Source: Clostridiaceae bacterium (lineage in GTDB: Bacteria; Bacillota; Clostridia; Saccharofermentanales; DTU023). Taken from it: 47,828 bases of DNA. The stretch lies in contig JAAZKT010000085.1 in NCBI GenBank assembly GCA_012799695.1, positions 1 through 47,828 on the forward strand, read 5' to 3'. Under the pieces are notes generated by a model. That model did no database searches. It was given only the letters and a program-made list of their open reading frames with translations, and had not been told where the DNA came from. This document shows, one piece after another, positions 7,400 through 17,858 of the stretch. The number at the start of each line of letters is the position of its first letter. Position 1 is the stretch's first letter. Both the position numbers and the translations under genes were made by a program.

Positions 7400-8797
7400 A
7401 TGTCGAAGACAAGGAAAATATACGTCTGTAGCGAGTGTGGACACGAGACGAGCGGATGGCTCGGTCGATGTCCGACCTGTGAAGCGTGGAACTCGTTTTC
7501 CGTTGTACATGAGATGCCTGCAAAGGCGTCAAGTGTTCGTACAGGCAGCTGGTTGCCGGGCACCGATGATGTGGAGCGTGCCGAGGTAATCGACTTATCC
7601 AAAGTGGAAGCTGAAGAGACGCGCAAAATACCGACAAATATTAGCGAACTTGATCGTGTGCTCGGCGGTGGACTCGTCCACGGATCGCTGATTCTGCTTG
7701 GCGGCGATCCGGGTATTGGAAAATCGACTCTTGCGTTGGAGATTTTGGGTCGTATTCCCGACGGAGAGATCCTCTATGTCAGCGGTGAGGAGTCGGAAAC
7801 GCAGATAAGGATGCGCTGCGAACGTCTGGAGCTCAGCGACAAAGCGATCCCCCTTCTGACAACGACCAACTTCTCGACGATTGAGAGAATTTTGCTTGAA
7901 CGGCGACCGTCGGTCGCGGTGATCGACTCAATTCAGACCGTTTATTCCGATGATTTAACAACAGCGCCAGGTTCCGTCTCGCAAGTGAGGGAAGCGGGGA
8001 TGGGGCTCTTACGTATCGCCAAAAGCTGCGGAATCACGATTCTGATGACGGGGCATGTAACGAAAGAAGGCGCCATCGCCGGGCCGCGTGTGTTGGAGCA
8101 TATGGTCGACACCGTACTTTATTTTGAAGGAGAGAGAGACAGCTCGCTGCGCATTCTTCGCTCCGTGAAGAATAGGTTTTATGCGACGGACGAAATTGGC
8201 ATTTTTGAGATGACGGAGAAGGGGCTCGTTTCCGTCGACCAAGCGACGAGCCTTTTTATCGACGGTAAACCCAGAAATGTAGCAGGTTCCGTGGTCACCG
8301 CTATTCTGGAAGGGTCGCGCCCACTTTTATTGGAGTTGCAGGCACTGACTGTTTCGTCGAATTATGGTTCGCCGATCAGGATGGCGCAGGGAATTGATCG
8401 TTCTCGCCTGATCATGTTGATGGCGGTGGCAGAAAAGAAGACGAATCTCGATTTCAGTTCGCTGGACGCGTACATTAATGTGACGGGCGGTATGAGGATC
8501 CGAGGGACTTCCGCCGATTTGGCGATATTGGCGGCACTGTTGTCGAGTGTCCGAGACGAACCGTTGGGACTTGAAGGTATCGTGCTCGGAGAAGTGGGAC
8601 TTACGGGTGAGGTGCGCTCCGTTTCGCGTATCGCCGATTATCTCGAGGAGGCATACCGCGCCGGATGGACGCGCTTTGTCGTACCCGCCTCCGCGCGCAC
8701 AAGATTGCGCCGTTTTGAAAAAGAGCGCGACGTACGCGTATACTACGTAAGTGAGTTGAACGAAGCATTTGATTTATTGTTTTCGAAGGAAAGTTAA
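7400..8797 (+). CDS. radA: DNA repair protein RadA
   Basis: A 465-residue RadA (Sms), the usual length. Order of parts: an N-terminal C4 zinc finger with C10-x2-C13 and C24-x2-C27; a RecA-like ATPase with Walker A GGDPGIGKST at about 101-110; the RadA signature KNRF at about 255-258; and a C-terminal Lon-protease-like domain. RadA is an ATP-driven helicase loader or branch-migration factor in recombination and repair and, in transformable Gram-positives, helps incorporate incoming DNA. AAAGGAACGGGAGAGG precedes the ATG. The stop overlaps a possible ATG (TAATG) of the ispD frame, so radA and ispD are one operon, as in many Firmicutes. Confidence 0.96.
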   Translation: MSKTRKIYVCSECGHETSGWLGRCPTCEAWNSFSVVHEMPAKASSVRTGSWLPGTDDVERAEVIDLSKVEAEETRKIPTNISELDRVLGGGLVHGSLILLGGDPGIGKSTLALEILGRIPDGEILYVSGEESETQIRMRCERLELSDKAIPLLTTTNFSTIERILLERRPSVAVIDSIQTVYSDDLTTAPGSVSQVREAGMGLLRIAKSCGITILMTGHVTKEGAIAGPRVLEHMVDTVLYFEGERDSSLRILRSVKNRFYATDEIGIFEMTEKGLVSVDQATSLFIDGKPRNVAGSVVTAILEGSRPLLLELQALTVSSNYGSPIRMAQGIDRSRLIMLMAVAEKKTNLDFSSLDAYINVTGGMRIRGTSADLAILAALLSSVRDEPLGLEGIVLGEVGLTGEVRSVSRIADYLEEAYRAGWTRFVVPASARTRLRRFEKERDVRVYYVSELNEAFDLLFSKES

Positions 8798-8820
8798 TGA
8801 ACGGCGGAGGTTTTGGAAGA

Positions 8821-9549
8821 ATGATCGTTTACGCTCTGGTACTTGCCGCCGGAAAAGGAACGCGACTCGGCGGCGATGAGAATAAAGTTTTTCGAGCTGT
8901 CGGGGGTCGTTCTATACTCGAGCGCTCCGTCGATGTTTTTGTTAAGTGTTCCGACATCGATCATATTGTGATCGTCGCCGATGAGGATGAGATACACCGT
9001 GTTAATTGTATGATTGAGGAGAGTTTCCCCGGCGAACCAATTTATGTCGTGAAAGGCGGATCGTCTAGACAGGAATCGGCACTGTCAGGGCTCTTGAGCA
9101 TTGAACGCCTTTTTGTCTCACTTGCAACATCTGATCCTGTACGTCGTATCGTGCTGATCCACGACGCTGCCCGCTGTTTTCTACCGCGTGAGCTTGTAAC
9201 GGAATTGATCGATACGATCAGGAATCATTACGTCGGTGTTGCTCCGGCTATTGCCGTCACCGATACAATACGATTGACGGACGAGCGAGGTGATACAATT
9301 ACGCAGACGCTGCCTCGGAGACGGTTGGTAGCAATGCAGACACCGCAAGGAGCAGATTTTGACATCATGTTGAAGGCGGCCCTTGTCGCAAAAGAGGAGG
9401 GCGCTCTTGTTACGGATGATCTCGAATTGTTGACGCGGATCGGTTATCCCGTCAGGCTCGTACAAGGTGACGATCGCAATCTGAAGATTACGACTCCGAG
9501 GGATTTAATCATCGCAGAAGCGATGGTATCCGATGAGATGAATATGTGA
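8821..9549 (+). CDS. ispD: 2-C-methyl-D-erythritol 4-phosphate cytidylyltransferase
   Basis: IspD makes 4-diphosphocytidyl-2-C-methyl-D-erythritol from MEP and CTP in the non-mevalonate isoprenoid pathway. The N-terminal nucleotide-binding loop LAAGKGTRLGGDENK follows the first strand directly, with the catalytic Arg and Lys present. IHDAARCF, TDTIRLT and MQTPQG are further family motifs. The frame is open from ATG 8797 (overlapping the radA stop), but ATG 8821 has CGGAGG about ten bases upstream and starts the protein right before the Rossmann strand (MIVYALVLAAGKG), as family members do; this gives 242 residues. No ispF follows; the next gene is unrelated. The pathway's presence fits a clostridial genome. 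Confidence 0.92.
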   Translation: MIVYALVLAAGKGTRLGGDENKVFRAVGGRSILERSVDVFVKCSDIDHIVIVADEDEIHRVNCMIEESFPGEPIYVVKGGSSRQESALSGLLSIERLFVSLATSDPVRRIVLIHDAARCFLPRELVTELIDTIRNHYVGVAPAIAVTDTIRLTDERGDTITQTLPRRRLVAMQTPQGADFDIMLKAALVAKEEGALVTDDLELLTRIGYPVRLVQGDDRNLKITTPRDLIIAEAMVSDEMNM

Positions 9550-9627
9550 TATTTATGTTAAACTGTAATGCAGTAGATGAACGAGGAAAGCGACCTCATT
9601 ATTAATTGATTTATCAGGAGGCATCTT

Positions 9628-11385
9628 ATGGCAAAGGCATCCGGACCGATCTCGGCAAGGCTGGTCGCAACGATTAATGCCCGTTATTACCCCGTAGAGG
9701 GTATTGCGGACTCCTATTGTTTGGACGGCAAATTCCCTAGTAAGCGGGAGCTTCGTTCTGTCAATACGACACTTGATCGCGAGTCTAAAGGTTCTTTCAT
9801 TGCTCTGTTCGGCTATTCGTCAGATGGGCGATCTCAGGCATCCGCGTGGCGGGAGCCTCTTAAGCGTTTGGCGGAGCAAGTTAATTTCGATCGAGGCGAC
9901 ATCGACAATGACATAAACGACCTCGCCGAAACGGCGATGGATGTGACGGGGCGTATCCGTTTAGGGGAAGACGCCACGCGTGAGCCTTATTTTTCCGGCG
10001 TTATTATCCGTGATGGAGAGATGGCAGCCGTGACGATAGGCGAAAGTATGGCGTTTGTTTATCGGCATGAGGCCCTCTATCCGTTGACCGGCAGCTTGAA
10101 AGATCTCGAGCCGACCGATCTGTATGGCGATCATGTTGAAGGATTTAATGATTTTATTGCCGGGGAAGCGGGGACGATCCGCTATTCCAATATCGCTCAG
10201 ATTGAGCAGGGAGATCGACTCGTCCTTTGCAACAGCGAGGTGTTTGACACCGTAGGGCAAAGTCAGATGATGCGTCATTTGGAAGATGCGGAAGACTCGT
10301 TGGATGCCGCGGGGCTTCTTCTGACCGCTGCCGCCTCTCAAATGCCCGGCACGCCGATGCAGGTCGCCGTCGTAGATGTTGTTTCGTTTAAAGAGGATGA
10401 AACTGCGGCGACACGCTTCAGTTTAGGGCGGTTCGCGACACAGGCAATGGAGCCGGTTGTTGATCCCGTTCATGAAAGTAAGGATGTGGATTTTGACAGG
10501 ACACAGCGATACAAAAAGCAGGATATGGTTGACATGATGAAAGAGCCCCCCGCTGCTGAAAAATCTGCGTCTTTCGAGGATGAATGGAGTGAAGAGTCGT
10601 CCATCGAGGCTGAAAGAAAATCACCGTTCTTATTCGATCCGCCGGCTGACTCAGCTATTTCGGAAGAGAGTCCGCTTTTCCCGAAGTATCCGGGTCTTGA
10701 TGAAAGGCAAGAGATCGCGTCACGTCATCAATTTGACGACGATGACGATTATTCGGACTACGATGAAGAGAGCGCTCCTCCCTCACATCTTCCCGTGTTT
10801 GCGTACAACCAAGAAGCTCAAAGGCGTCGGAAGGCACAGTCGCGGTATGACGACTACGGACAATCCGATGCTTGGGATACCGGTGGCGATATTGACGATG
10901 AGCGCGCCTACGACCCGTACAGTGATGATGATTATGACGAGCTCGGTTATGATAGAAAACCGCATACATCCACTCGCACGAGGCGAATCGCATTCTATGC
11001 CATATTTATTGTCATTATTGTTGTCAGTATAATTGCCCTGATTAATCTGTTGAAGGGTGGCGGCTCATCCAAACCTTCCGAAACGACAACGACGACTCAG
11101 ACGGATCCGATTGTCATTCCTAGTGTAACGACCACGACCACGCCGTTCGTAGAGCCTACGACAACAACGACAACAGGAGGAACTCTCAGTGATACGATTT
11201 ACATCGTGAAGGCCAATGACACTCTCTGGTCGATCGCCAGCAACTTTTACGGATCAGGTACTTTGAGTCAAAAAGGACTTGACAAACTGGCGCGTTACAA
11301 CGGTATGAGCAGCTCCAGCCAGCATATCTATAAAGGGCAAGAGCTTAAACTGCCTCCTATTGAGACGTTGAGAGCAATGGATTAA
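9628..11385 (+). CDS. Membrane protein: degenerate PP2C-like cytoplasmic domain, acidic linker, one TM helix, extracellular LysM
   Basis: A 585-residue protein with TCAGGAGG upstream of its ATG. Residues 1 to about 255 follow the PP2C (PPM) phosphatase pattern: a buried strand FIALFGYSS (57-65) where active enzymes have DGMGG; VTIGESMAFVYR (about 135-147) where they have GDSR; GDRLVLCNSEVFD (about 194-206) where they have SDG; and PMQVAVVDV (about 242-250) where they have DN. The metal-binding Asp residues are replaced at all four places, so catalysis is unlikely. Residues 260-450 are acidic, Tyr/Asp-rich and probably disordered. About 451-475 is a transmembrane helix after Arg-Thr-Arg-Arg; 480-520 is a Thr-rich wall linker; about 525-578 is a LysM domain (YIVKANDTLWSIA) that binds peptidoglycan. 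It could link wall state to a cytoplasmic partner such as a Ser/Thr kinase system. The PP2C call rests on motif spacing only. Confidence 0.75.
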   Translation: MAKASGPISARLVATINARYYPVEGIADSYCLDGKFPSKRELRSVNTTLDRESKGSFIALFGYSSDGRSQASAWREPLKRLAEQVNFDRGDIDNDINDLAETAMDVTGRIRLGEDATREPYFSGVIIRDGEMAAVTIGESMAFVYRHEALYPLTGSLKDLEPTDLYGDHVEGFNDFIAGEAGTIRYSNIAQIEQGDRLVLCNSEVFDTVGQSQMMRHLEDAEDSLDAAGLLLTAAASQMPGTPMQVAVVDVVSFKEDETAATRFSLGRFATQAMEPVVDPVHESKDVDFDRTQRYKKQDMVDMMKEPPAAEKSASFEDEWSEESSIEAERKSPFLFDPPADSAISEESPLFPKYPGLDERQEIASRHQFDDDDDYSDYDEESAPPSHLPVFAYNQEAQRRRKAQSRYDDYGQSDAWDTGGDIDDERAYDPYSDDDYDELGYDRKPHTSTRTRRIAFYAIFIVIIVVSIIALINLLKGGGSSKPSETTTTTQTDPIVIPSVTTTTTPFVEPTTTTTTGGTLSDTIYIVKANDTLWSIASNFYGSGTLSQKGLDKLARYNGMSSSSQHIYKGQELKLPPIETLRAMD

Positions 11386-11416: not shown

Positions 11417-11437
11417 GCCCGGTTCTTCCGGGCTTTT
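11417..11437 (+). terminator. Intrinsic terminator after the LysM protein gene
   Basis: GCCCGG (11417-11422), loop TTCTT and CCGGGC (11428-11433) are followed by TTTT. It is a compact G+C-rich hairpin with a short T-run, placed 31 bases after the LysM gene and before alaS. Confidence 0.6.
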
Positions 11438-11470: not shown

Positions 11471-14128
11471 GTGGAAGCGTTAAGCTTGAACGAAGTTCGA
11501 CAGTTATTTCTTGATTTTTTTGAGGAACGCGGCCATCTTGTGTTGCCAAGCTTTTCACTTGTCCCGGAAGATGATCCTTCCGTGCTCTTGATTAACGCGG
11601 GCATGACACCGATGAAACCGTGGTTTACGGGGGCGAAAACGCCGCCTTCGACGCGTGTCGCCACATGTCAGAAGTGCATCCGCACTCCCGATATTGATAA
11701 TGTTGGCAAGTCCGGCCGCCACGGAACATTCTTTGAAATGCTGGGCAATTTTTCATTCGGGGATTACTTTAAGAGGGAAGCGATTCTCTGGGGATGGCAG
11801 TTTTCTGTCGATGTGTTGAAACTCGATCCGGAGCGCATCTACGTCTCGATCCACTTGGATGACGATGAAGCCTTTGAGTATTGGCGTGACATCGGGTTCC
11901 CTGCGGAGCGAATTTTCAGATTTGATGAAAGCAACTTCTGGGAACACGGAGTCGGTCCTTGCGGCCCTTGTTCCGAAATGTTTTATGACAGGGGAGAAGC
12001 GTATGGGTGTGACGATCCGAATTGTAATGTCGGCTGTGAATGTGATCGTTACGTCGAATACTGGAATCTCGTTTTTACGCAATTTGACCGTTTAGAGGAT
12101 GGCACGTATGTGCCGCTCGAAAAGAAAAACATCGATACGGGTGCGGGTCTTGAGCGCATCGCGTCCATTGTTCAGAATGTTCCGACGCTTCTCGATGTCG
12201 ATACGGTGAGGGCGATTGTCGACAAAGCGTGTGAGGTGACGGGAACGGTATACGGTGAAGACGAGTCGAAAGATATCGCCATCCGAATTATCACCGATCA
12301 TGTTCGCTCTTCGATGATGATGATTGCTGACGGTGTGCTTCCCGGCAACGAAGGACGCGGCTACGTTTTGCGCCGACTGATCAGACGAGCGGCTCGGCAA
12401 GGGCGTCTTCTCGGAGTCGATGAGCCGATCCTCGCTCCCGTTATGCGCGTCGCCATCGCTCAGTCTAAGGGGCACTATCCGGAGCTTAAGAATGAGGATC
12501 GGATCATTCGTGTGCTGGAGGCTGAAGAAAAGCGCTTCAATCGGACAATCGAACAAGGTTTAGCACAATTGAAAGAGGCGATTGAGCAGGAACGCGCCAA
12601 AGGTTACGATGTGTTGCCGGGCGATATCTGCTTCCTATTGCATGATACATACGGCTTTCCTATTGAGCTCACGGTCGAGATTGCCGCTGAGGACGGGATG
12701 AAGGTTGATATGGAGTCATTCTCTCAGCTGATGAATGCGCAACGCGAGAGAGCGCGCAGAGATTTCCTTGCAAAATCATCCACCGCATGGGGAGCTATTT
12801 CATTACCCGATCACATTCGCGCGCTTGAACCAACGTCCTTTTACGGTTATGACCGGCTCGATTTGCCCGCTAGACTCCTTCACATACTTAAATTGTCAGA
12901 AGCCGAACGCTCTTTTGTTGAAGTGAAGTCAGCTGCGGAGGGTGAAGAAGTCATTCTGATCTCTGACGGCACACCTTTCTATGCACTCGGAGGCGGTCAG
13001 ACGAGTGACCGCGGCACGATGAAACAGGGCGAGACGATCGTTGACATTTTTACCGCGGACTCGTCCGGCGACGGAATTGTACTACATCGAGCGAAAGTCA
13101 GGGCAGGGACATTGCATGCCGGTCACGATGTCTTATTCAATGTCGACAGAGTGACGAGGCTTTCAACTGCTCGCAACCATACGGCGACGCATTTGCTTCA
13201 TGCCGCCTTGCATCGAGTGCTCGGAGACGGCGCCGACCAGAGGGGATCACTCGTTGCGCCGGACCGCCTGCGCTTTGACTTCGTACACGACGGTCCCGTC
13301 ACATATGAACAGTTGCGCGAGGTGGAAAGACTCGTCAATGCCAAGATTCTGGAGAATTTGCCGGTTATGACGGAAGTGATGAGTTTGGAGGATGCCAAGG
13401 CGAAAGGTGTAACGGCTCTTTTCGGTGAAAAGTACGAGGACAACGTCCGCGTTGTCTCTTGTGGCGACTGGTCGCGTGAATTATGCGGCGGGACGCATGT
13501 AAAATCGACGGGTGAACTCATTTTGTTCCGTATCTTGTCAGAGAGCGGCATTGCCGCCGGCATTCGGCGTATTGAAGCTGTGACGGGCGAAGGCGCTATG
13601 CGCGAGATGTTCAAAGACGCCGAGATTGTGAAACAACTGTCGGATCGCCTGCATGTCAGTCGAGATGAAATGATGACGCGCCTTGACGCGATCGAAACTC
13701 GTGTTAAGGATCAGCAGGAAGAGATTAAGCGTTTACAACGTGAGAGGCTCAGCGGATCCGTTTCGGATCACAGTGCGGTTGAAAGTGACATAGGACCATT
13801 TAAGGTGTTGACGGCAGTTTTGCCGAATTGCGATGCGGAGATGCTTCGCGAGGCGGGTGATCGCTTCCGTGATAAGGTCGGCAAGTCCGCCGTTATCTTA
13901 CTCGCATCCCCATCGGACGATGGCGACAAGGTTCTCTGGTTGGCGATGGCGGGCGCAAAAGCGATTTCCGATGGCGCCAAGTCAGGTGACCTCGTTCGCA
14001 TTGCCGCAAAGATCACAGGCGGCGGCGGCGGCGGACGCCCCGACATGGCTCAGGCAGGAGGACGCGACGTCACAAAAATTGATGATGCAGTGGAAGCAGT
14101 CCGCGCTCATTTGGCATCCATTTTGTAA
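11471..14128 (+). CDS. alaS: Alanyl-tRNA synthetase
   Basis: An 885-residue full-length AlaRS that charges tRNA-Ala. The start is GTG at 11471 with AAGGGGG upstream. The class II catalytic core includes LINAGMTPMKPWFTG and GCGPCSEM-type sequence; the editing domain carries HTATHLLH and CGGTHV, the zinc-binding His and Cys set that removes Ser and Gly mischarged onto tRNA-Ala. The C-terminal half has a coiled coil and a DHHA1-like domain with a glycine-rich end (GGGGGGRPDMAQAGG). The upstream gap of 85 bases contains a terminator but no T-box. The HIT gene follows after 15 bases, so the two are probably co-transcribed. Confidence 0.97.
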   Translation: MEALSLNEVRQLFLDFFEERGHLVLPSFSLVPEDDPSVLLINAGMTPMKPWFTGAKTPPSTRVATCQKCIRTPDIDNVGKSGRHGTFFEMLGNFSFGDYFKREAILWGWQFSVDVLKLDPERIYVSIHLDDDEAFEYWRDIGFPAERIFRFDESNFWEHGVGPCGPCSEMFYDRGEAYGCDDPNCNVGCECDRYVEYWNLVFTQFDRLEDGTYVPLEKKNIDTGAGLERIASIVQNVPTLLDVDTVRAIVDKACEVTGTVYGEDESKDIAIRIITDHVRSSMMMIADGVLPGNEGRGYVLRRLIRRAARQGRLLGVDEPILAPVMRVAIAQSKGHYPELKNEDRIIRVLEAEEKRFNRTIEQGLAQLKEAIEQERAKGYDVLPGDICFLLHDTYGFPIELTVEIAAEDGMKVDMESFSQLMNAQRERARRDFLAKSSTAWGAISLPDHIRALEPTSFYGYDRLDLPARLLHILKLSEAERSFVEVKSAAEGEEVILISDGTPFYALGGGQTSDRGTMKQGETIVDIFTADSSGDGIVLHRAKVRAGTLHAGHDVLFNVDRVTRLSTARNHTATHLLHAALHRVLGDGADQRGSLVAPDRLRFDFVHDGPVTYEQLREVERLVNAKILENLPVMTEVMSLEDAKAKGVTALFGEKYEDNVRVVSCGDWSRELCGGTHVKSTGELILFRILSESGIAAGIRRIEAVTGEGAMREMFKDAEIVKQLSDRLHVSRDEMMTRLDAIETRVKDQQEEIKRLQRERLSGSVSDHSAVESDIGPFKVLTAVLPNCDAEMLREAGDRFRDKVGKSAVILLASPSDDGDKVLWLAMAGAKAISDGAKSGDLVRIAAKITGGGGGGRPDMAQAGGRDVTKIDDAVEAVRAHLASIL

Positions 14129-14624: not shown

Positions 14625-15884
14625 CTATTGATCCTTATCGATCGTTCCGTTCGGTGCCTGCTTATTTTCGTCCATCGCCTGCAGAAGCTTTCTAATCTTA
14701 GCGGTCGGATCGAGGAGAGACGATAGTGACGCGTTGTGATTCAGTGCGTCTATGATCAAGGCGACAAAACGCGAAGCGTTGACGTCCTTGTACCACTTTG
14801 CCGCGAGCAGTTCCGGAGGTCGGTAAATTAGATTTGTGCAGAAGACTGCGTCGATGACGCCGTCCTCATACGCCTTGTCGAACGATCCGAGACCGTCCGT
14901 AAAGAGACCGAATGTCGCGGCGCAGAAGATTTTTCGCGCGTTGCCGGCCTTGAGCGTTCTCGCAATCTCGAGCATCGACTCGCCTGAAGAGATCATGTCA
15001 TCGACGATCATGACGTCGCGCCCGGCAATCGGCTCGCCTAGGAATTCATGCGCGATGATCGGGTTGCGTCCGTTTTTGACGACTGTATAGTCGCGTCTCT
15101 TGTAAAACGTTCCGAGCGGAAGCCCGAGGACGGATGCGTAATAGACGGTGCGGAAAATCGCACCCTCGTCGGGACTAATCATCACCATCTCCCTGTTGTT
15201 GAAGTCGATGTCGGGGTAAGCGCGTATCAATCGTTCGAGTACTTGGTAGGTCGTCGGCACATTTTCAAAACCTGAGGTCGGAACGGCATTCGCGACGCGG
15301 TCGTCGTGTGCGTCGAAAGTAATGAAGTTGTCGACACCCAACTGATCGAGCTCTTCGAGCATATGAGCGCAGTCAAGTGATTCGCGCGCATTGCGGCGAT
15401 GCTGTCGACCTTCATACAAATAGGGCATGATGACGTTGACGCGTCTCGCTTTTCCGGAGGCGGCAAGTATGATCCGTTTCAGATCCTGATAATGGTCGTC
15501 CGGGCTCATTCTGTTTTGAAAACCGCGCATATTATATGTGACGGAGTAATTTGTCACATCGCAGATGATGTAGAGGTCATGTCCGCGCACCGTACGTTCA
15601 ATGACGGCCTTGCCTTCTCCGGATGAGAAACGGAAGGTATTGACGGGGATATGAAAATCATCGCGCAGGAATCCGGGTGTGATTTCATCGGGCAACGCCT
15701 CGTCGAGGTAGGCCATTCTTCGGTCTACAAGCGCCCTATTAATTTCTTTCGAGAGATCCGCCGCACCGCGCATGGCGATGATTCCGACCGGAGCGAGCGG
15801 CACCATCGGGTTGTTGCCATATTGGTCATACTTGTAATAATCGCTGTCGCTTCGGCTTGTGAGTCTTCCAGTATTATGCGGCAT
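14625..15884 (-). CDS. prs: Ribose-phosphate pyrophosphokinase (long-form), likely active copy
   Basis: A 419-residue PRPP synthetase, longer than the usual 310-320. It makes PRPP from ribose 5-phosphate and ATP for purine, pyrimidine, His and Trp synthesis. RFSSGEGKA and the GHD motif occur in the N-terminal half; PYLYEGRQHRR stands where PYFGYARQDR is usual; ITFDAHDDR keeps the catalytic His of the DLHA motif; and the PRPP-binding loop IVDDMISSGES keeps both Asp residues, the Gly and the final Ser. CAGGAGGT lies upstream of the ATG. It is second in a two-gene operon, 18 bases after its paralogue. The extra length is an N-terminal segment of about 30 residues plus insertions, which suggests a separate subfamily. 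I regard this copy as the functional synthetase. Confidence 0.85.
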   Translation of the reverse strand: MPHNTGRLTSRSDSDYYKYDQYGNNPMVPLAPVGIIAMRGAADLSKEINRALVDRRMAYLDEALPDEITPGFLRDDFHIPVNTFRFSSGEGKAVIERTVRGHDLYIICDVTNYSVTYNMRGFQNRMSPDDHYQDLKRIILAASGKARRVNVIMPYLYEGRQHRRNARESLDCAHMLEELDQLGVDNFITFDAHDDRVANAVPTSGFENVPTTYQVLERLIRAYPDIDFNNREMVMISPDEGAIFRTVYYASVLGLPLGTFYKRRDYTVVKNGRNPIIAHEFLGEPIAGRDVMIVDDMISSGESMLEIARTLKAGNARKIFCAATFGLFTDGLGSFDKAYEDGVIDAVFCTNLIYRPPELLAAKWYKDVNASRFVALIIDALNHNASLSSLLDPTAKIRKLLQAMDENKQAPNGTIDKDQ

Positions 15885-15902: not shown

Positions 15903-17162
15903 TTAGTTCATCTTTCCCAGATCGGAGAAAGTCATTTGACGACTTGACGTGCTGTCCGAGTGACCGAGCGATTCAAGAAGCTCATCAATCCGCTTGGCCG
16001 GCGCCATGAGTCTTGACAGCGAGGCGTCATGATTGAGTGCCGAGATTAAAAGGGCAAGATCGTCGGCCATCGGGATATCCGTGTACCATGGAGACGTGAG
16101 CACTTCGGGAGGCCTGTACGCCATATCCGTCGAGAACACTCGCTCGATGATCCCGCTCTCCCATGCTTGCCTCAGTCGTCTAATTCCTTCCGTAAATTGT
16201 GCAAACGAGGCGGTGCAAAGCACTCTGTTGGCGCCTCTTGTCTTCAACGCCGCGGCACAATCGATGAAATCATTGCCGCTGTCCAATAAATCGGCGACTA
16301 TGATGATGTCCTTGCCATCGACGCTGTCGCCCAGAAAAGTTCTCGAAGTCGTCTGTGTTAACACGTCATCGACGTATTTGAAATCGCGTCGGTGGTAAAA
16401 AATACCGAGCGGCAATTTCATCGCGGAAGCGTAGAAAATGGCCCTGCTGATATTCTCCTCATCGGGGCTGACGACCATCATGTGTTCGCGATCCACGCGC
16501 AAATCGGGGATCGTTTGAAGGATTGTCCTTATGCTCTGATAGGACGTAGGGAAGGATTCGAAATTTGATCTTGGAACTGCATTGGCGACTCGTGCGTCAT
16601 GTGCGTCAAACGTGATAAAGTTGTCGATGCCCAATCCGAAAAGTGAGCGCAACATGGCGCCGCAATCGAGTGATTCCCGATCGGATTTTCTGTATCGACG
16701 ACCCTCGTACAGGAAAGGCATGATCACATGGATGCGAGCGGCGGAGTCCCGTGTGCAGAGGATGAGACGCGTTAAATCGAGGAAATGCTCATCGGGCGTC
16801 ATGGAGACATCGGTGCCATACCGTTTATAGGATGTGCCATAGTTGAGAACATCCGTTAAAATGAAAACGTCGTGTCCTCTCACCGTATCGATAACGCGCG
16901 CCTTCCCTTCCCCCGAACTGAATCGCGAGAGATCGACTCGGATACGGTAGTCGTTGCGGACATAGCCTGGGAGTTGAAGGAGATCGGGGTTTTGTTTTGC
17001 GAGTGCTTTTCTGCGAGATGCGAGCTGATGGTTGATACGTTCCGCGAGGGGCGGGTCAAGTTGATGCACGATTAAGGCGATAGGTCCGTTCGACTCCAGT
17101 ACCGGCTCATCGCCGAAAAGGTTCTTAACGGATTGGTCAGCCGGAAAAGTGAGACTTTGCAT
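15903..17162 (-). CDS. PRPP synthetase paralogue with altered PRPP loop
   Basis: ATG 17162, preceded by GGAGGG, gives 419 residues, exactly the length of the downstream neighbour and similar along the whole protein (RFSSGEGKA, TVRGHD, ITFDAHDARVANAVP, YRPPE and NHDASLS near the end). An upstream in-frame extension would run into the engB gene and lacks a ribosome binding site. The PRPP loop reads IVADLLDSGND: the first Asp of the conserved pair is Ala and the closing Ser/Thr is Asn. The ATP-loop RQDR-like site is RRYR. Loss of the loop Asp suggests a weak or inactive enzyme. By analogy with eukaryotic PRPP-synthetase-associated proteins it may form mixed oligomers with the downstream copy; that is inference. 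An altered specificity is the other option. Confidence 0.8.
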   Translation of the reverse strand: MQSLTFPADQSVKNLFGDEPVLESNGPIALIVHQLDPPLAERINHQLASRRKALAKQNPDLLQLPGYVRNDYRIRVDLSRFSSGEGKARVIDTVRGHDVFILTDVLNYGTSYKRYGTDVSMTPDEHFLDLTRLILCTRDSAARIHVIMPFLYEGRRYRKSDRESLDCGAMLRSLFGLGIDNFITFDAHDARVANAVPRSNFESFPTSYQSIRTILQTIPDLRVDREHMMVVSPDEENISRAIFYASAMKLPLGIFYHRRDFKYVDDVLTQTTSRTFLGDSVDGKDIIIVADLLDSGNDFIDCAAALKTRGANRVLCTASFAQFTEGIRRLRQAWESGIIERVFSTDMAYRPPEVLTSPWYTDIPMADDLALLISALNHDASLSRLMAPAKRIDELLESLGHSDSTSSRQMTFSDLGKMN

Positions 17163-17213
17163 GTGTATCCCTCCAGTGTGTATAGTATAACAGAAAGATC
17201 GCGGGTGATTCGA
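17163..17213. promoter_or_regulatory. Divergent promoter region between the PRPP synthetase pair and engB
   Basis: Only about 50 bases separate the two starts. The segment TATAGTATAACAG (17181-17193) contains -10-like hexamers on both strands (TATAGT or TATAAC to the right, TATACT to the left). TTGCAT at 17158-17163 is a possible -35 for engB with a 17-base spacer. Confidence 0.4.
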
Positions 17214-17858
17214 ATGACTCAAGTAGCAAAGGGCAAAAAAAGACAAAAATCTCAAGGGTATATCGCTGCGGCGAGCGCGAAACAGTTTCCCTCTCCGTCG
17301 CGTCGTGAGATCGCATTCGCCGGACGTTCCAACGTCGGCAAATCGACGCTCATCAATGCGCTGAGCAAAAGAAGAAATCTCGCACGGACGAGCAAAACAC
17401 CCGGCAAAACGAGGCTGGTCTTTTTCTATGAGACGGAGAGAGCCGATCTCTACTTCGTTGATCTTCCCGGTTACGGCTATGCGAAGGCTTCGCGCGATGA
17501 GCTGACATCGTTTTCACGCGTGACGGACGATTACTTCAAGTCGGGAAGGCCGATTGGCGTCGTTCTCTTGCTTATCGATATACGGCGCGGTTTTGGCGAC
17601 CTCGATCTGCAAATGCTCGATTATCTTTGTCATTTTAACATCGCATGGCAGGTCGTCTTGACAAAAGCCGACAAGTTGTCGCGGCAAGCCATTGTAAAGG
17701 CTGAACGCGAAGCGATGGCGATGATTGAAAAGTACGCGGATCAGTATGGTCATAAAGCTTATGCGCCCATTTCGGTCGCAGCAGGTCCGTCTCCGAGAGA
17801 CTTAGCTGTACAGTCGCTCGAGAGGCGCATCTACAACATCGTCGACGGGATAGAATAG
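17214..17858 (+). CDS. engB: Ribosome biogenesis GTPase EngB/YsxC
   Basis: A 214-residue small GTPase of the TrmE-Era-EngA-EngB family needed for late 50S subunit assembly. G1 is GRSNVGKST, the switch-I Thr lies in KTPGKTR, G3 is DLPGYG and G4 is TKAD, with ISVAAG at the G5 position. The frame stays open upstream to 17133 inside the divergent gene, but ATG 17214 (MTQVAKGKKR) gives the expected length and lies just after the promoter-like segment; GTG 17205 is an alternative. The ribosome binding site is weak (CGGGTGAT). A terminator-like hairpin follows, so it may be transcribed alone. Confidence 0.92.
   Translation: MTQVAKGKKRQKSQGYIAAASAKQFPSPSRREIAFAGRSNVGKSTLINALSKRRNLARTSKTPGKTRLVFFYETERADLYFVDLPGYGYAKASRDELTSFSRVTDDYFKSGRPIGVVLLLIDIRRGFGDLDLQMLDYLCHFNIAWQVVLTKADKLSRQAIVKAEREAMAMIEKYADQYGHKAYAPISVAAGPSPRDLAVQSLERRIYNIVDGIE

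Follow-up and report, generated by a model that had tools for sequence, protein, structure and literature searches.

A clostridial membrane protein joining a degenerate PP2C domain to an extracellular LysM domain: a putative wall-tethered pseudophosphatase

The window analysed here is a 47,828-nucleotide stretch of contig JAAZKT010000085.1 from a Clostridiaceae bacterium. An ORF on its forward strand (9628-11385, with the ATG at 9628 and the stop codon ending at 11385) encodes a bitopic membrane protein of 585 aa and is preceded by the ribosome-binding site AGGAGG (9616-9621, +), read directly from the sequence 6 bases 5' of the ATG. The upstream neighbour is ispD (8797-9549), itself following radA, and the downstream neighbour is alaS (11471-14128). 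Between the gene and alaS a terminator-like hairpin (GCCCGG-TTCTT-CCGGGC, then TTTT; 11417-11437, +) was found by eye; it was missing from the output of the terminator scanner, which requires five T, and promoter and terminator scans performed no better than on shuffled sequence. The surroundings are housekeeping genes and depend on lineage: ispD, radA and alaS flank the gene in part of the order and other housekeeping genes do so elsewhere, with no conserved gene neighbour among 20 flanking loci and no linked kinase gene in the flanks examined. Beyond alaS, two adjacent genes on the reverse strand (14625-15884 and 15903-17255) encode PRPP-synthetase-type domain proteins of 419 and 450 aa, longer than usual; the pair is also adjacent in close relatives, at ~85-93% identity.

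The protein begins with a degenerate PP2C (PPM) domain (approximately residues 9-258; 9652-10401, +), predicted to be cytoplasmic and supported by hhalign with controls, Foldseek, VIA and dN/dS. Directly after it stands a conserved short motif, ATRFSLGRFATQAME (A.RFSLGRFATQAME; residues 261-275, 10408-10452, +), most of which is unchanged among the six closest sequences and which occurs as NLGRF.T or NLGLF.T variants across the rest of the family; it is a possible linear binding or phosphorylation site. An acidic, low-complexity cytoplasmic linker (residues 276-453; 10453-10986, +; dN/dS 0.16-0.24) leads to the only strong hydrophobic helix in the product (residues 454-472; 10987-11043, +; hydropathy 3.23), which carries TRTRR on its N-terminal side and is thus oriented N-in. 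A Thr/Pro/Ser-rich, fast-evolving extracellular linker follows (11056-11193, +; dN/dS 0.28-0.45), and then a LysM peptidoglycan-binding domain (residues 525-576; 11200-11355, +), matched in Pfam at E 2.8e-9 with 37.2 bits against a curated cut-off of 20.9. The LysM domain is C-terminal to the transmembrane (TM) helix, hence outside, and is the sole LysM match in the 1.71 Mb, 133-contig assembly. A first-pass annotation of this DNA had proposed a single-TM, N-in protein in which a PP2C-like cytoplasmic half is joined through a Thr-rich linker to a wall-binding extracellular LysM domain; hydropathy and the Pfam match bear out the layout and the identity of the outer domain.

The PP2C-like half required indirect methods. 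Pfam and NCBIfam scans of the 585 aa protein detected no PP2C domain (Pfam returned LysM only), and hmmsearch with an order-level profile found no PP2C among PDB sequences. Profile comparison through the class Clostridia bridged the gap: the order profile matched the class profile in hhalign at 8.8e-24, and the class profile matched the solved PP2C tPphA at 1.2e-15, the PrpCs of these genomes at 1.7e-21, and PppA, PstP and Stp1 as well. The order profile also matched PrpC directly at 1.3e-5, against 0.03 for the best of 60 column-shuffled controls and 0.15 for the best of four unrelated families; chance likeness to PP2C was ruled out by the shuffled, reversed and unrelated-family controls. An AlphaFold2 model built from six sequences was poor (pLDDT 42), and the best 50 PDB matches listed for it by Foldseek were all PP2C, led by PstP at E 1e-5, with VIA aligning 181 residues at Z 8.5; a second, trimmed model (pLDDT 47) was weaker in VIA (best Z 5.3), and the matches listed were again all PP2C. 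At the level of sequence, the bridged profiles, the controls and Foldseek together demonstrate that the N-terminal domain descends from PP2C, as the first-pass annotation had supposed, and they lend tentative support to a PPM beta-sandwich as its fold, the model having a pLDDT of only 42.

The aspartates of the DG, GDSR, SDG and DN motifs are the direct metal ligands in PP2C structures. Aligned to PrpC, the DG aspartate is replaced by G62 (62/63 being G/Y), the GDSR aspartate by E139, the SDG aspartate by S203 and the DN aspartate by T242. The earlier claim that all four metal sites are replaced stands, with the one reservation that the motif-1 aspartate is retained as D28 (in 'ADSY' in place of 'NEDS'); it is present in 22/23 members of the order. 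The four ligand aspartates are lost in all 23 order-level sequences examined, with the exception of some GDSR aspartates and a DN-position aspartate in L050/L051 (L numbers denote members of the family); in the focal protein the D of GDSR has given way conservatively to E (GESM), and the near relatives L009 and L010 read GDSL. Two or three cations are required by every PPM phosphatase known (PMC12002173), and the focal domain has presumably lost phosphatase activity. It combines PP2C descent, lost ligands and purifying selection, the attributes of a PPM-type pseudophosphatase, the absence of activity being a prediction from sequence. In the order of strands and helices, and tentatively in fold, the domain agrees with the bacterial PP2C/PPM phosphatases PrpC, Stp1, tPphA and PstP (profile and Foldseek comparison), of which PstP also sits in the membrane (PMC12088040); it differs from them in lacking metal ligands at all four sites and in having an extra insertion after motif 1, a shorter stretch at the expected flap, and a LysM domain outside.

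Relatives were sampled across the class Clostridia by a class-wide search and ORF reading, and because sampling was uneven the counts are lower bounds. The family bears the hallmark N-x-D-[NS]-F-Y-x-N-G and includes soluble, complete PP2Cs (L148, L150, L153-L155, L157, L177-L179), a complete PP2C with TM helix and Big_2 (L152, with L156 similar in layout), and a complete PP2C-TM-LysM protein with two LysM domains (L151), placed just outside the focal clade. Among LysM members, L074, L081, L087 and L144-L146 keep the four aspartates; still other members of the family are degraded. Whether or not the motif columns were included, the trees nested the focal order in a supported clade (100/99) that is TM-bearing and mostly LysM-bearing, and to which these four-aspartate LysM members also belong. 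The state of the metal site, full or lost, changed at least seven times on the tree by parsimony, which does not give the direction; with complete outgroups, repeated loss is the simple reading. On that simple reading the focal lineage stands at the inactive end of a clostridial PP2C family whose members are membrane-bound and bind the wall, with several further losses. The first-pass annotation had held that homologues with full metal sites at other positions would count against it; LysM relatives with four aspartates do exist, yet these aspartates occupy the same alignment columns, and such relatives therefore speak for PP2C ancestry and show where on the tree the loss falls. Six further members (L162, L163, L166, L168, L169, L171) are degenerate PP2C-TM proteins that have long tails of Thr/Pro repeats and lack LysM; they form a supported clade of their own, distinct from that of the LysM members, and the active site was apparently lost separately there. 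Two LysM members, L089 and L183, carry a very large acidic/Gly-rich insertion inside the degenerate PP2C domain.

Most family members carry LysM outside. In L050/L051, of one genus, SH3_3 (E 7e-14) stands in its place, and the C-termini of L044 and L052 had no Pfam match. The swap of one wall-type domain for another suggests that wall contact is the retained outer job, and that job is probably wall binding.

A homologue was present in 58/59 genomes searched at genus, family and order level, and conservation of the architecture, for which the first-pass annotation had called for a homologue survey, is supported. Among close relatives dN/dS was 0.05-0.08 for the PP2C-like domain, 0.15-0.36 for LysM and 0.16-0.45 for the linkers; being the lowest in the protein, the value for the dead PP2C domain marks it as the most constrained part. 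Pseudogene decay was ruled out by the intact ORF, the low dN/dS and the near-universal presence in the order. No relatives turned up in the viral contigs scanned, and so there was no sign of a phage origin. Within the domain the constraint has a new distribution. At the four ligand positions, invariant in the active PP2C set, order-level entropy was 1.58-2.76 bits against a domain mean of 1.63 (percentiles 49-86), and the old pocket positions 26, 27, 62, 63, 139, 203 and 242 vary in the focal order about as much as the domain average or more. Newly invariant in the order are R11, I92, D93, G108, G124, E131, A134, T136, S187, N188, G210 and Q245. A pocket that drifts freely while other positions are fixed argues against a phosphopeptide trap at that place and favours either a structural core or a new surface for contacts. 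Given the low confidence of the models (pLDDT 42 and 47), some of the newly invariant residues may be structural rather than part of one surface.

A domain with no metal site that is nevertheless the best-conserved part of its protein is probably a docking platform and not an enzyme. On balance we favour the view that the protein is a wall-to-cytoplasm adaptor whose dead PP2C domain has been kept as a protein-docking module working through a new surface. Outside, the Thr-rich stalk and LysM domain would hold the protein on peptidoglycan, as the nature of the domain suggests. Inside, sequence and tree show a domain taken over from a working wall-binding phosphatase whose metal site was then lost; its strong purifying selection would reflect retention for docking, and with constraint moved from the catalytic pocket to other residues a new surface most likely holds a cytoplasmic partner. 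The adaptor would position that partner or signal the state of the wall to it, and the partner would most plausibly belong to PrkC/PrpC Ser/Thr signalling or to the wall-synthesis and division machinery.

Four other readings were weighed against the adaptor. The protein might be a division-site or wall-synthesis scaffold of the MapZ kind, unrelated to Ser/Thr phosphorylation, with the PP2C fold as a rigid platform only. MapZ of Streptococcus pneumoniae has a cytoplasmic N-terminal part, one TM helix and a C-terminal extracellular domain (PMC7055233), and the focal protein has the same topology, with other domains on both sides. The exchange of the outer domain between two wall-type domains and the standing of LysM as the only such match in the genome also suit a scaffold, whereas division genes are absent from the adjoining positions, and we judge this reading rather improbable. 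The first-pass annotation had suggested a phosphoprotein-binding module, perhaps reading out a PrkC-like kinase: the dead domain would bind phospho-Ser/Thr peptides in the old substrate cleft and so compete with PrpC or protect PrkC substrates. PHLPP2, thought to be inactive, perhaps still binds substrate (PMC12002173), and PASTA proteins were found in 59/59 relatives searched and true PP2Cs in 38/39; both are so widespread that their co-occurrence with the focal gene carries little weight. A conserved phosphate pocket should not vary as the old pocket positions do, and given that free drift the suggestion, while possible, becomes less likely and is best regarded as unlikely. That enzymatic activity persists at a rebuilt or diminished metal site, around D28, D93 or N188 for instance, is very doubtful: D28 is kept, polar residues are among those newly invariant (D93, E131, S187, N188, Q245) and the four aspartates survive in some LysM relatives, but both catalytic metals have lost their direct ligands and the cation requirement of known PPM phosphatases applies. 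That TM helix and LysM alone matter, as a plain wall anchor with the N-terminal domain a neutral remnant, would fit the loss of the active site and nothing further, and is scarcely credible for a domain that is the most constrained in the protein and present throughout the order.

The adaptor reading has partial parallels in known systems. The PPM pseudophosphatases TAB1 and PHLPP2 resemble the focal protein in having a PP2C-type domain, a lost or altered metal site and a proposed scaffolding role (PMC12002173); they are eukaryotic and keep one metal site (PMC12002173), whereas all four inner ligands are missing from the focal protein, and the coupling of a PPM pseudophosphatase to peptidoglycan is new relative to them. 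The PASTA Ser/Thr kinases PrkC/StkP are likewise bitopic, with a wall-binding outer domain joined to an inner signalling fold; the focal protein has a dead phosphatase fold in place of the kinase and LysM or SH3_3 in place of PASTA, and a Pfam scan of it found neither kinase domain nor PASTA repeats. A catalytically dead signalling domain as a regulator of wall synthesis has a precedent in MviN/FhaA of Mycobacterium (PMC12599244), which involves a pseudokinase in another architecture rather than a pseudophosphatase.

No description of a bacterial PPM pseudophosphatase or of a PP2C-TM-LysM architecture was found in the open-access literature searched, and the text of a 2025 survey on the domain architectures of bacterial PP2Cs makes no mention of LysM. 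In Gram-positive bacteria, Ser/Thr signalling that senses the wall is described from the side of the PASTA kinases, and a conserved family in which PP2C or dead PP2C is joined to LysM or SH3_3 would be either the matching other half or an adaptor tethered to the wall. As a tentative proposal, possible rather than probable, class-wide wall-binding membrane PP2Cs of Clostridia may be the phosphatase-side counterpart of the PASTA kinases, from which several lineages would have produced dead wall-sensing adaptors, near-universal in the focal order, with a newly made docking surface by which they tune wall synthesis or PrkC/PrpC signalling. With intermediates from full to no metal site in one architecture, the family is a good natural series for studying the passage from enzyme to pseudoenzyme. 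A PF13672 search of the focal genome returned only two other genes, one of which adjoins a PASTA-bearing ORF on contig 14. The most telling context for the question of a partner is the operon of the active cousin L152, in another Clostridia family; the focal gene is without such linkage. That operon (L201:2296-9648) encodes a Hanks kinase with Big_2, an FHA protein, the complete PP2C-TM-Big_2 protein, and TadZ-like and TadA-like ATPases of Tad-type secretion, and its kinase and phosphatase share Big_2 outer domains.
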